Assembly: GCF_003999875.1 (NCBI RefSeq)
Contig: NZ_RQVJ01000002.1
Location: forward strand, 124,001-188,000
Source of the DNA: Veillonella sp. 3310
GTDB taxonomy: Bacteria; Bacillota; Negativicutes; Veillonellales; Veillonellaceae
Direction: 5' to 3'
Length of the DNA stretch: 64,000 nucleotides
Position numbers and translations under genes: made by a program. The notes beneath the pieces were generated by a model. It saw nothing but the letters and a program-made list of their open reading frames with translations. It was not told the origin of the DNA and did no database searches. This document shows positions 24,594-28,675 of the stretch, one piece after another. The first letter of the stretch is position 1. Every line of letters starts with the position of its first letter.

Positions 24594-24876
24594 AAGCGTC
24601 TCCTTCTTAGTATCTAGTGTATAAATCTTAATTAGGTATCTCCTATTAGTAGGTTACCCAGAGTATATTATATGCTATTTCAAGGCTTTCATAGGGAGGG
24701 TAAACTATGAATTAACATATAATTAGAAGCATAGGAGTTAGAACTAATTTAGTGTATCCTATCATCTGTAACTAAAGTATATCTTACTAATATGAAGAGA
24801 AGATGATGAATACTAAAAGATAGTTATCTCGGCTACATAGAGAATATCCATGAACTTATATAGATTAGCATACAAA

Positions 24877-24902
24877 AAAGCGACTGTTTTCACAGTCGCT
24901 TT
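24877..24902 (-). terminator. terminator of the rubrerythrin transcript
   Basis: Read on the minus strand: AAAGCGACTG, loop, CAGTCGCTTT followed by a run of six T and then GTATG. It lies about 200 bases beyond the stop codon, so the mRNA has an unusually long 3' tail. Confidence 0.88.
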
Positions 24903-24923
24903 AGTATACCTATACTAGCTCTA

Positions 24924-25094
24924 ACCCACTTGGGATGATGTATATGTAATTTGACCCACTTGGGTAGATATCATTACTACTTAGTATATTGTGTATATCA
25001 GGCACTTGCCTTTAGAACTACTTAGTTCTTATGTTGATTGGTTTGTATCACTTGATACAGTTGTATAGTACTTATCTAAGAAACCACTCGGTTT
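24924..25094 (-). repeat. array of eight mini-hairpins with a common AAGT-type loop in the rubrerythrin 3' untranslated region
   Basis: On the minus strand the hairpins read in order: AAACC-GAGT-GGTTT (25094-25081), TAGaT-AAGT-ACTA (loop 25073-25070), GTATC-AAGT-GATAC (25057-25046), AGAACT-AAGT-AGTTCT (25029-25014), GGC-AAGT-GCC (25010-25001), TACT-AAGT-AGTA (24986-24975), ACCC-AAGT-GGGT (24965-24954) and CCC-AAGT-GGG (24934-24925). Stems differ completely yet stay complementary, while the four-base loop is constant. Loops are spaced 16-30 bases apart. Related hairpins sit in the 5' leader of the same gene. The structure is seen directly; its function is unknown. Confidence 0.85.
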
Positions 25095-25099
25095 ACTAA

Positions 25100-25648
25100 T
25101 TAGATAAGAGTTTCTCCGTGTTGAGAGAAGAATGCTTGTGGATGAGCACATACTGGGCAAAGTTTAGGAGCTTCTTCACCGATGTGGATGTAACCACAGT
25201 TAGCACAGATCCAAGCAACTGGTTGTTCACGTTTGAACACTGTACCGCCTTCAACAGCTGTTACAAGGTCAAGGTAACGTTCTTCGTGACGAGCTTCGAT
25301 AACACCAACTTGTTCGAATAAGTAAGCGATTTTAGCGAAACCTTCTTCTTTTGCAACTTTAGCAAATTCTGGGTACATTACAGTGTGTTCGTAGTGTTCA
25401 CCAGCAGCAGCGTCTTTTAAGTTGATCGCTACGTCAGCGTTTACATCGCCACCGTGTAATAATTTGAACCATACTTTAGCATGAGCGGATTCGTTGATTG
25501 CTGTTTCTTCGAAGTAATCAGCGATTTTGTTCATACCAGCTTTGCGAGCTGCACTTGCATAGTATGTATATTTACGGTTAGCTTGAGATTCACCAGCGAA
25601 TGCTGCTTGAAGATTTTTTTCTGTTTGAGTACCTTTTAATTCTGGCAT
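25100..25648 (-). CDS. rubrerythrin (peroxide-reducing diiron protein)
   Basis: 182 aa. The N-terminal four-helix ferritin-like domain has the diiron glutamates and histidines (AFAGESQANRKY near residue 14, EETAINESAHAKVWF near 47, EEGFAKIAYLFEQVGVIEARHEERY near 100-125). The C-terminal rubredoxin domain has CANCGYIHIGEEAPKLCPVC (residues 148-167) for one iron. Rubrerythrin reduces hydrogen peroxide in anaerobes, in the cytoplasm. It has a strong promoter with an upstream A/T tract, a 117-base leader and a 200-base tail, both full of small hairpins, which suggests post-transcriptional control or a second RNA role. Confidence 0.95.
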   Translation of the reverse strand: MPELKGTQTEKNLQAAFAGESQANRKYTYYASAARKAGMNKIADYFEETAINESAHAKVWFKLLHGGDVNADVAINLKDAAAGEHYEHTVMYPEFAKVAKEEGFAKIAYLFEQVGVIEARHEERYLDLVTAVEGGTVFKREQPVAWICANCGYIHIGEEAPKLCPVCAHPQAFFSQHGETLI

Positions 25649-25660
25649 TTTCTTTCCTCC

Positions 25661-25754
25661 ATGTACTTTACATAGTTGTAATAAAATAAATACTTATTTG
25701 TATAGTGGGCTTGTTCACCTGAACAAGTCCCTATTGATTTCGTTACTTAACGAA
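25661..25754 (-). promoter_or_regulatory. structured 5' leader of rubrerythrin with AAGT-type hairpins
   Basis: Minus strand, in order: TTCGTT-AAGT-AACGAA (25754-25739); a 10-bp stem with loop AGGT (25730-25707); AAAT-AAGT-ATTT (25699-25688); and ATGTA-AAG-TACAT (25673-25661), which ends directly at the Shine-Dalgarno GGAGG (25660-25656). The loops match those of the 3' array of the same mRNA. Confidence 0.8.
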
Positions 25755-26170
25755 TAATCATTGTTGATTACATTATAGACTATGAAAATGAGAAATGCAA
25801 GTCTTTTTTTAGAAAATTTTAAAAATTTTTTATAAATGATAAAGCCTCTCAATCGGCTTTGTTATCGCATTTATAGCTATTTAATTCCCTATGAAAATAA
25901 GGGGATTATACAGAATAGAAATTGAGAATCGAACTCAAAAGATAAAACCATAATGATAATATATAGAAAACCCTCTATTTATAGGCTTTCCTAGATAGGA
26001 AGAAGAAACGGGTGCTTATGAGATACTACTAAGTGATACTAGTCATCAATGGTACTGGTATATTTGTATAAGATAGAGGAGAAACTTTTACAAATGCACA
26101 TAGGGCCCTATAGAGAAATATAAAGTTAGATGATATACTATACACATAATCATGAAAATAGGAGGTGCCT
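25755..26170. other. intergenic region between rubrerythrin and the DUF951 gene
   Basis: Holds the rubrerythrin promoter on the left and a short hairpin AAAGCC/GGCTTT near 25841-25861. An extended -10 for the DUF951 gene, TGA-TATACT, lies at 26131-26139. The middle (about 25870-26120) shows nothing recognisable. Confidence 0.5.
25772..25832 (-). promoter_or_regulatory. strong promoter of rubrerythrin with A/T-rich upstream element
   Basis: On the minus strand: TTGCAT (25800-25795), 17 bases, TATAAT (25777-25772). Directly upstream (25801-25832) lie alternating A and T tracts, as in an UP element. The expected start is near 25765. No Fur- or PerR-like box was recognised here. Confidence 0.8.
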
Positions 26171-26421: not shown

Positions 26422-27450
26422 ATGGTTGATTTAACGAAATATGCAGCCAAGGGTGGTTGCGCGTGTAAGATTGGGCCTCATATCTTAGCGGATGTGTTAC
26501 AACATATGCTGATGCCTACGCATCCAGCTGTATTGACCGATGCGTCTGGTATGGAAGATGCTGGGGTGTATCAAATTAATGATAGTCAAGCCATTGTACA
26601 GACGGTGGATTTTTTTACACCTCCAGTGGCAGATCCTAGACTCTTTGGTAGAGTGGCGGCGTGTAATAGCCTAAGCGATGTATATGCTATGGGTGGTACT
26701 CCTATCTCAGCGCTGAATATTGTAGGCTTTCCGGTGCCTTTAGTGAAAGAAGGTGTCCTTCGTGAGGTATTAGAAGGTGCCAATGAGGTCTTACTAGAGA
26801 CGGGAGTAGCTCTTCTTGGTGGTCACAGTATCGAAAATGAAGTGCCTGTTTTTGGGATGGCTGTGACAGGTCTCATCGATCCTCGTCATATTTGGACCAA
26901 TGGGGATGCTCGAGTTGGTGATGTGCTGATTCTATCTAAACCGATTGGGACCGGAATTATGAACACGGCTGCAAAAGGTGGCGTATTCCCTGAAGGTGTG
27001 CAGGAAGCTATGCAAAGCATGGGGACGATTAATAAAGGGGCTCGAGATGTGGCTGCACAGTTTGCCGTTCATGGCTGTACGGATATTACAGGATTTAGTT
27101 TAATTGGTCATGTATCTGAAATGGCAAAAGCCAGTGGAACTTCTATTGAACTCTATGCGGAGCAAATTCCTCTATTTACCGATGTATTAGAGGCTGCTCG
27201 TATGGGCCTCGTCCCTGCAGCGACGTATGGAAATCGCAAGGCTTTAGGTGATCAAGCAGAATTCGAGGACTACTTAGATCCTGTATGGAGTGATATTTGC
27301 TTCGACCCGCAAACATCGGGTGGTTTATTATTTGCGTGTTCTGAAAGTGAAGGGAAACAGCTACTTTCAAAGTTACAAGAAAAAGGTTTACAGGCTGCAC
27401 AGATTGGCCGTGTCATTCAGGAAGGAAGGAAACAAGTATATGTCAAATAA
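26422..27450 (+). CDS. selD: selenide, water dikinase
   Basis: Makes selenophosphate from selenide and ATP, for selenocysteine, selenouridine or labile-selenium cofactors. 342 aa. The catalytic motif is GGCACK at residues 11-16, with Cys13 in the position of E. coli Cys17 and Lys16 matching Lys20. No in-frame TGA is needed, so this is the cysteine form. Other matches: FFTPPVADPRLFGRVAACNSLSDVYAMGG, GGHSIENEVPVFGMAVTG, TDITGFSLIGH and DPQTSGGLL near the C-terminus. It overlaps yedF, forming a selenium unit. Confidence 0.96.
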   Translation: MVDLTKYAAKGGCACKIGPHILADVLQHMLMPTHPAVLTDASGMEDAGVYQINDSQAIVQTVDFFTPPVADPRLFGRVAACNSLSDVYAMGGTPISALNIVGFPVPLVKEGVLREVLEGANEVLLETGVALLGGHSIENEVPVFGMAVTGLIDPRHIWTNGDARVGDVLILSKPIGTGIMNTAAKGGVFPEGVQEAMQSMGTINKGARDVAAQFAVHGCTDITGFSLIGHVSEMAKASGTSIELYAEQIPLFTDVLEAARMGLVPAATYGNRKALGDQAEFEDYLDPVWSDICFDPQTSGGLLFACSESEGKQLLSKLQEKGLQAAQIGRVIQEGRKQVYVK

Positions 27451-28312
27451 AGAAGTAACTATAGATATGCGAGGTCAAGTATGCCCAGCACCAGTGATTG
27501 AAGCGAAAAAGGCGATGGATGCCGATGCAAATACGTATGTAAAAGTCATCGTTGATAATGACGTGAGTCGTGACAATGTGGTGAAATTAGGGGAATACCG
27601 AGGCTATGAAAACCATGTGTTAGAGCAAGAAGGAAATTACATTGTGGTATTGATTCCGCCTACAGCAGTGAAAGAGGAAGTGGCTGCGGTTAGTGCTGTG
27701 AATATTCAAACATCGAATGATCTAGAAGACCTAGATTTGGAAGATATTTTTGAAAATGAATTTGCCGCACCTTTAGGAAAGGTCGTAACGAATACAACGA
27801 TTGCTGGTGGGGAAGCTCCGTTTTATATGACGAATGGAACCGGTAGTCTAGAACGTAGTATTGCAGCCTATGAAAAAACAAAAGCAGAAAAAGCGGCTAT
27901 GGGTGCGCCAATTAGTCAAGATACAGTGCCACCTGAATTGATGGGAGCCGTGGTGCCTTCTGTGCCAACCGCTTCTATGGGTGGTAAAGTGTTGCTATTC
28001 ACGAAGGATTATTTAGGTGAAGGTAGTGAAGAGTTAGGCCGCAACTTGATGAAAACATTCATCTATGTATTGACGGAAACGGATGTGAAACCCAAAGCCA
28101 TCTATTGCATCAATAGTGCTGTTAAAATGCTTGTAGAAGGGTCTGAACATATTGAAAACTTCAAAGTCTTAGAAGCTGCAGGCGTGACTGTAAGTGGTTG
28201 TGGTATTTGCTTAGACTTTTATGGGGTAAAAGATAAAGTACAAGTGGGCACTATTACCAATCTCTATGCTATTACTGAAAGCATGATGCAAGAACCATTT
28301 GTTACATTGTAA
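27440..28312 (+). CDS. yedF: YedF-type selenium metabolism protein (TusA + DsrE-like fusion)
   Basis: 290 aa. The N-terminal TusA/SirA domain holds the CPAP motif (RGQVCPAPVIEAKKAM, residues 10-25). A linker follows (about 80-165), then a DsrE/F-like domain (VLLFTKDYLGEGSEELGRNLM) with a conserved cysteine pair in GCGICLDFYG near 250. This two-domain form occurs with selD and is thought to carry or deliver selenium; that role is inferred for the family. ATG 27440 overlaps the end of selD and has AAGGAAGGAAACAAG upstream, so the two are translationally coupled. Confidence 0.92.
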   Translation: MSNKEVTIDMRGQVCPAPVIEAKKAMDADANTYVKVIVDNDVSRDNVVKLGEYRGYENHVLEQEGNYIVVLIPPTAVKEEVAAVSAVNIQTSNDLEDLDLEDIFENEFAAPLGKVVTNTTIAGGEAPFYMTNGTGSLERSIAAYEKTKAEKAAMGAPISQDTVPPELMGAVVPSVPTASMGGKVLLFTKDYLGEGSEELGRNLMKTFIYVLTETDVKPKAIYCINSAVKMLVEGSEHIENFKVLEAAGVTVSGCGICLDFYGVKDKVQVGTITNLYAITESMMQEPFVTL

Positions 28313-28369
28313 TTAGATGCGTGGTGACACTGACAGATATAACTGGAGAGATTGCATGAGGGATAGGGG

Positions 28370-28675
28370 GTGTCTGCTTTGGAAGTAATTAGTCAACAGC
28401 TTAAGATACCTATAGATAAGGTATCACCAAAAATACTTATTCTATTTAGTTCTTACTATTTTGCAGATAAAGCAGATAAAACGCTAGGGCAATATACAGT
28501 GCCTCATCAGTTGATGCCAGTGCCACCAGAACTATCCAGCGCTTGTGGGCTATCTATTGGTATAAAAGAAGAATACATAGAAGAAGTGCTACGTATCTTT
28601 GAAGTAGAAAAAATAACCCCTTCTCATATGTATTATTATGAAAAGGGGAAAGAACCGATAGAATACAAGCAGTGA
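28370..28675 (+). CDS. DUF3343 putative Se/S carrier-like protein
   Basis: Up to 101 aa. It has the DUF3343 pattern: an N-terminal strand with a phenylalanine-rich segment (LILFSSYYFADKADKTL), then PHQLMPVPPELSSACGLSIGI with the single conserved cysteine, then a helix EEYIEEVLRIFE. Members sit next to selenium genes and are proposed as Se or S carriers. The start is uncertain: GTG at 28370 or TTG at 28379, the latter with GGGGGTG at better distance. Probably the third gene of the selD unit and followed by a terminator. Confidence 0.78.
   Translation: MSALEVISQQLKIPIDKVSPKILILFSSYYFADKADKTLGQYTVPHQLMPVPPELSSACGLSIGIKEEYIEEVLRIFEVEKITPSHMYYYEKGKEPIEYKQ

Follow-up and report, generated by a model that had tools for sequence, protein, structure and literature searches.

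The mRNA for rubrerythrin (rbr), a protein of oxygen defence, carries in Veillonella sp. 3310 and most related Veillonellaceae an array of short hairpins with unrelated stems and one nearly fixed tetraloop, AAGU, and these hairpins are under selection for both loop and pairing at the RNA level. The hairpins, their fixed loop, the covariation of their stems, their distribution and the absence of such an array elsewhere in the scanned sequence can be read directly from the genomes compared. Stem-variable, AAGU-tipped hairpins of this kind point to an undiscovered factor that would read the tips and control iron and redox genes post-transcriptionally.

Structure of the rubrerythrin transcript

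The window, i.e., the whole stretch of 64,000 nucleotides analysed (contig NZ_RQVJ01000002.1, positions 124,001 to 188,000), contains rbr on the minus strand, and the closest named locus is that of Veillonella sp. VA142, with 99% protein identity. The features of the transcription unit are as follows, in the order of transcription.

25772..25800 (-): putative rbr promoter, -35 TTGCAT, 17 nt, -10 TATAAT, read from the sequence
25755..25770 (-): palindrome TAATCA-ACAA-TGATTA, operator-like, spanning the presumed start of rbr transcription
25739..25754 (-): 5' hairpin 1, TTCGTT-AAGT-AACGAA, with the presumed mRNA 5' end about 10 nt away
25707..25731 (-): 5' hairpin 2, GGG(A)CTTGTTC-AGGT-GAACAAGCCC; the loop of relatives is AAGT
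25688..25699 (-): 5' hairpin 3, AAAT-AAGT-ATTT, weak in the folding model
25661..25673 (-): 5' hairpin 4, ATGT-AAAGT-ACAT (5-nt loop), directly before the Shine-Dalgarno sequence
25100..25648 (-): rubrerythrin gene of the array-bearing mRNA, open reading frame of 182 aa; Pfam Rubrerythrin 6.4e-24, rubredoxin-like RUBY_RBDX 4.1e-14
25081..25094 (-): 3' hairpin H1, AAACC-GAGT-GGTTT; AACC-AAGT-GGTT in relative L110
25044..25059 (-): 3' hairpin H2, TGTATC-AAGT-GATACA
25014..25029 (-): 3' hairpin H3, AGAACT-AAGT-AGTTCT
25000..25011 (-): 3' hairpin H4, AGGC-AAGT-GCCT; AGAT-AAGT-ATCT in relative L110
24975..24986 (-): 3' hairpin H5, TACT-AAGT-AGTA
24954..24965 (-): 3' hairpin H6, ACCC-AAGT-GGGT
24925..24934 (-): 3' hairpin H7, CCC-AAGT-GGG
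24902..24917 (-): 3' hairpin H8, TAGTAT-AGGT-ATACTA; AAGT loop in 3 of 7 relatives
24874..24902 (-): rbr intrinsic terminator, GCGACTGT-GAAA-ACAGTCGC followed by a T run; ordinary loop, outside the array

The eight hairpins that the earlier note had described between the rbr stop codon and the intrinsic terminator are present on the minus strand at 24902-25094. Their loops had been counted as seven AAGT and one GAGT; the GAGT loop (25081-25094) was confirmed, while the others proved to be six AAGT and one AGGT (24902-24917), which gives RRGT with G and T fixed. The excess over chance also held: 8 RRGT-loop hairpins with a stem of at least 3 bp were observed, whereas dinucleotide shuffles of this stretch averaged 0.13 and none of 5000 had more than 3; no single tetramer loop gave more than 3 hairpins in any of these shuffles. 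The terminator is a separate hairpin that overlaps H8 by at most one base, and no convincing small open reading frame was found within the hairpin array. The folding of the 271-nt region with the 3' array is 5.8 SD better than that of its shuffles; when the full rbr 3' UTR of the window sequence is modelled thermodynamically, high probability is given to H2, H3 and H4 only, with H1 and H5-H8 in competition with longer-range pairings. Since whole-UTR folding models form only some of the hairpins, the hairpin claim rests on comparative evidence.

The array had been taken for a feature of the 3' tail, which it is not: hairpins with the same loop also stand in the rbr 5' leader (25661-25754) and, again beyond what the earlier note contained, on a few other mRNAs. 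5' hairpin 1 is invariant in 7 genomes of the window's genus, and at the place of 5' hairpin 4, AAGT hairpins are found in most relatives in the V. parvula genus and in a further genus, termed g4 below. Upstream, the rbr TATAAT and the bases after it are conserved across genera, and the TAATCA-ACAA-TGATTA palindrome is invariant or nearly so in aligned rbr leaders across the family; by position only, it looks like a PerR/Fur-like operator. Divergent from rbr, a selenium-type cluster lies at 26422-28675 (+) in the window, with SelD-like, YedF-like and small Se/S-carrier-like products named by eye from the translations.

Loop code and stem covariation across the Veillonellaceae

The rbr UTRs of 28 Veillonellaceae genomes from four genera were compared, where g1 is the window's genus and g3 is the V. 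parvula genus. AAGT was the loop of 150 of the 275 perfect tetraloop hairpins with at least 4 bp in these UTRs; the next real loop classes were AGGT (9) and GAGT (7), and the sole other large class, ACAA, was largely the nearly invariant promoter palindrome. All 150 AAGT loops are on the mRNA strand, with 0 on the opposite strand, and AAGT is outside the top loops of hairpins in coding sequence. In the rbr UTRs, 69% of all AAGT occurrences cap a stem of at least 3 bp, against 52% for AGGT, 28% for GAGT and 0-22% for most other tetramers checked. The closing pair was C-G or U-A in 28 of 33 distinct stems. In the same sequences, 0 of 66 tetraloop terminators had an AAGU loop, and AAGU is therefore not a generically favoured loop or cap.

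Most species have about 7-13 short hairpins (3-7 bp) per rbr mRNA, 5' leader and 3' UTR together, and in the longest arrays these are spaced by about 24 nt. The array is mostly in the 3' UTR in g1 and g4 and mostly in the 5' leader in g3, where rbr leaders of about 275-400 nt contain 7-10 hairpins, usually at intervals of 23-25 nt, against 1-4 in the 3' UTR. This placement on both UTRs, mainly 5' in the V. parvula genus, does not fit a purely 3'-derived form of the stable small RNA that the earlier note had considered. Related genomes had been expected to keep the array, and most do, the genomes L120 (g2) and L121 (g3) being nearly without it on rbr. Other phyla and Megasphaera-type genera have rubrerythrin loci without the AAGU array.

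Stem covariation with a fixed loop, proposed earlier as a check on homologues, was found in g3, g4 and the window's genus (alignments A4, A5, A6 and A8). The g3 leader alignment showed double changes in 18 of 32 pairs, compared with 6.7 in shuffles (0 of 500 reaching the observed value) and 2-6 in slid controls; the g4 3' UTR alignment showed them in 7 of 20 pairs; and, within the window's genus, H4 had double changes in 3 of 4 pairs and 5' hairpin 2 in 4 of 10. Loop columns are 93-100% identical, stem columns 74% and linkers 76%, and the stems remain complementary, so that the claimed selection on RNA shape plus loop is borne out. In addition, G-U pairs are retained in the array stems, which points to an RNA-level element.

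Other carriers of the hairpin

Scans for at least 4 hairpins with a common tetraloop in 250 nt found no AAGU array except that of rbr, and the extended scan, which covered 2.46 Mb in total (68% of the own genome, or 1.264 Mb, and 1.2 Mb from a V. parvula-type genome), likewise returned only the rbr array. Single hairpins are carried by few other genes. The gene of a 2[4Fe-4S]-type ferredoxin has, in all four genera, an AAGU hairpin where its mRNA begins, right behind the -10 box: AAGGT-AAGT-ACCTT in the window's genus, GAGGC-AAGT-GCCTT in the V. parvula genus (one case with AGGT), TGAGGT-AAGT-ATCTCA with a second copy in g2, and AAGG-TAAGTT-CCTT in g4. The closing pair is C-G or U-A except in g4, which has a U-U mismatch beneath the loop. 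The sister family within the order also has the ferredoxin promoter and a hairpin at the 5' end, but with a loop other than AAGU, and the AAGU code therefore appears to be a Veillonellaceae invention on top of an older ferredoxin 5'-end hairpin. The sister-family leaders L300, L301, L303 and L304 have the same promoter layout, with a GC-richer hairpin of unrelated loop right after the -10 region.

Ferritin carries the element in one genus: the ferritin 3' UTR has 1-2 AAGU-type hairpins with unrelated stems in most g4 genomes. The hairpin in the g1 ferritin leader is kept in 3 of 6 genomes and broken in the other 3. A broad iron regulon, suggested by seven single hairpins (ferritin, FecB-like, GltS, formate-THF ligase, Fur), was rejected, as these were not common to genera in the orthologues that could be compared; with this lead unshared and the g1 ferritin hairpin broken in half of the genomes, only ferredoxin and g4 ferritin were kept as carriers. 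Other single AAGU hairpins near genes were few, and none was common to several genera in the orthologues compared, so the regulon would be very small. A covariance model of the single hairpin searched against whole genomes held too little information, and its non-rbr matches were mostly coding sequence.

Downstream of ferritin, CA-rich repeats (AACACACAAAACACAC) were seen in the window's genus (L213, L216), and L216, L220 and L221 have direct repeats of the AAAAGTCA type farther downstream; these repeats look like an operator or promoter region. A cluster at C1:440564 of the own genome (G000) was rejected as a second array, as it consists of one long leader hairpin and two coding matches with A-U closing pairs. 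The long one (C1:440552-440579, L165) is a 12-bp hairpin, CTATATATAGAA-AAGT-TTCTATATATAG, which immediately precedes the ribosome-binding site for a small protein, BFD-like by eye, whose gene adjoins a SufU/SufS-like pair; the hairpin is not counted as the same element because its closing pair is A-U.

Comparison with known RNA elements

Loop-read hairpin arrays are known in general; the present loop code, its presence in the 5' as well as the 3' UTR of a redox mRNA and its restriction to one family are undescribed in the literature found. CsrB/RsmZ sponge RNAs also combine numerous small hairpins, all with the same conserved loop, in a single transcript, and this part of the likeness drawn in the earlier note stands, as does its remark that the loop differs from the Csr GGA. 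The Veillonellaceae loops are RRGU, mostly AAGT with some AGGT and GAGT in the counts given above, and the array is in mRNA UTRs, not in a free small RNA, of a genome without CsrA. The iron-responsive element (IRE) read by IRP1 is alike in being a loop-read hairpin in the 5' or 3' UTR of iron-protein mRNAs, including ferritin. The IRE has a CAGUGN loop, which superficially resembles CAAGUG, and a bulged C five bp below it. Unlike the IRE, the array hairpins have short, uninterrupted stems with an RRGU loop and neither bulged C nor lower stem.

ANTAR target RNAs (EutV, NasR, AmiR) are defined as a pair of hairpins with hexanucleotide loops that have A at position 1 and G at position 4 (PMC3369931); they share with the array the tandem arrangement of short hairpins with variable stems, A/G bases conserved in the loop, a C:G-type closing pair and short linkers. 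The array differs in its RRGU tetraloops and in its number of hairpins, which reaches about a dozen where ANTAR targets have two, and ferredoxin has a single one. Moreover, the array hairpins are not part of a terminator, and a second hairpin overlapping the intrinsic terminator was not found. Yeast RNase III, Rnt1p, accepts both AAGU and AGGU (PMC4334505), but it is a eukaryotic enzyme, and its substrates have longer stems and are cleavage sites, not arrays. Brewer et al. (2021) reported structured RNA candidates of Veillonella, the gltD, ldh2, ilvD and potE motifs (PMC8632094), which are Veillonellales-specific UTR motifs from comparative discovery as here; they are compact, riboswitch-like candidates, and the main text mentions neither rubrerythrin nor AAGU. 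In agreement with the view that no described family matches, a search with 4227 Rfam models gave nothing above the gathering score, and the best overlap was SpF25 with 21.5 bits against a cut-off of 48 (E = 3).

Candidate readers

CsrA (PF02599) is absent from the 99.93% complete genome, and a control search finds PF02599 in 3 genomes; Hfq is absent from the one genome tested. An IRP/aconitase-type reader was considered and rejected: the window genome (G000) and G014 each have a single aconitase-family protein, LeuC-sized with an open frame of about 430 aa, and neither has one of IRP1/AcnA size. A second dsRBD protein as the reader was also rejected, since each genome searched encodes a single one, which ordinary RNase III can account for, and a sister-family genome, where the AAGU loop is absent, likewise has one.

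An ANTAR regulator (PF03861) is present in all four genera (G000, G014, G021 and G006). That of the own genome is a response regulator at C1:452889-453462, alongside a histidine kinase, groESL and catalase (G000 C1:452889-454900, pieces of L165). In a UTR scan that covered 68% of one genome and 56% of another, canonical ANTAR dual hexaloop targets did not stand out, and the rbr UTRs of L107, L127 and L123 contain almost no ANNGNN hexaloop hairpins. The ANTAR response regulator is thus a candidate reader, the array loops departing from the hexaloop rule (A1, G4), and no assignment is made.

Proposed mechanism and rival explanations

Where dozens of stems unrelated in sequence end in the same loop, on a closing pair of pyrimidine and purine, the pattern has the look of the footprint of a reader of loop and top pair. 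We infer a family-specific trans-acting factor, most likely a protein, that would read the loop and closing pair and ignore the stem sequence, and with it a direction of effect and a physiological signal; the recognition unit would be an RRGU tetraloop (mostly AAGU) on a pyrimidine-purine pair. Binding at many sites, one of them just before the ribosome-binding site of rbr, may set the stability and/or translation of the mRNA: a hairpin load that shifts from one UTR to the other favours an effect on the whole transcript (stability, localisation or titration), and the copy retained ahead of the ribosome-binding site hints at an effect on translation too. The same factor would act through the single hairpin at the ferredoxin mRNA 5' end in every genus and through the ferritin 3' UTR hairpins in g4, and the three mRNAs would form a small post-transcriptional redox/iron regulon. 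On this sequence evidence, the rbr mRNA may be a multivalent regulatory RNA through which a loop-reading factor exerts cis control over a set of redox/iron mRNAs, a reading that we consider evenly balanced between right and wrong. Its bolder form is offered tentatively, with the chances somewhat against it: a bacterial counterpart of the IRE, with a Y-RRGU-R loop code on rubrerythrin, ferredoxin and, in one genus, ferritin mRNAs, an iron/redox-sensing reader, and the rbr mRNA, with its roughly ten sites, as a hub of high valency.

The main rival, unlikely in our judgement, is a CsrB/RsmZ-like sponge, in which the rbr mRNA, possibly induced by peroxide, would titrate the loop-binding factor from single-site targets such as the ferredoxin mRNA. 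In its favour, many sites stand on rbr, which is reported among the notable oxidative-stress transcripts of oral Veillonella (PMC4374535), against one on ferredoxin, and it accords with an array that moves freely between UTRs and with the PerR/Fur-like palindrome at the rbr promoter. However, no broad set of single-site targets emerged, AAGU hairpins elsewhere being unshared between genomes in the orthologues compared; the hairpin kept right before the rbr Shine-Dalgarno sequence suggests a cis role; and the genome has neither CsrA nor Hfq. With ferredoxin as the one other family-wide carrier that could be titrated and no CsrA to sustain the Csr analogy, the sponge suggested in the earlier note is not favoured. 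A specific form of the cis reading, in which the reader is the conserved ANTAR response regulator with its preference moved from hexaloop to tetraloop, is quite improbable. ANTAR proteins do bind tandem short hairpins with variable stems, a C:G closing pair, A/G in the loop and short linkers (PMC3369931, PMC7496416), the regulator occurs in all four genera, and canonical targets did not stand out; against this, the loops here have 4 nt instead of 6 with G at position 3 instead of 4, ferredoxin has a single hairpin in most genera, the array forms no terminator, and the canonical-target scan covered just the parts of two genomes given above.

Passive armour, in which short hairpins would shield an abundant, AU-rich mRNA from RNases and AAGU would merely be a convenient cap, is very unlikely. 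Hairpins at the 5' end and before the terminator, and a sister-family ferredoxin hairpin that lacks AAGU, are in its favour, but a fixed loop on stems as variable as the linkers is the reverse of what armour needs, the stems have just 3-7 bp, and terminators go without AAGU. Even less credence is given to processing or decay sites for an RNase III-type enzyme, as the array stems are shorter than those of bacterial RNase III substrates, which exceed 3-7 bp, and each genome searched has one dsRBD protein, as has the sister-family genome without the AAGU loop. The point that speaks for such sites is that yeast Rnt1p recognises NGNN and AAGU-capped stems (PMC4334505), with AGGU among the loop variants here. 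A DNA-level element (cruciform, recombination or transcription-factor sites) is hardly credible: in the DNA every hairpin does form a palindrome around 4 central bp, yet the mRNA strand invariably shows this centre as AAGT, never as ACTT, G-U pairs are tolerated, and the hairpins end where the transcript ends.

Biological significance

Recognition of a loop alone, on stems that drift, is rare and clean; the array would supply many independent natural mutants of one binding site, and the reader could be fished for directly. The AAGU-capped short hairpin would be a new natural tag for RNA biology. Veillonella is a common anaerobe of the mouth and gut, without CsrA and Hfq in the one genome searched, and an iron/redox mRNA code would be a first handle on its post-transcriptional control.
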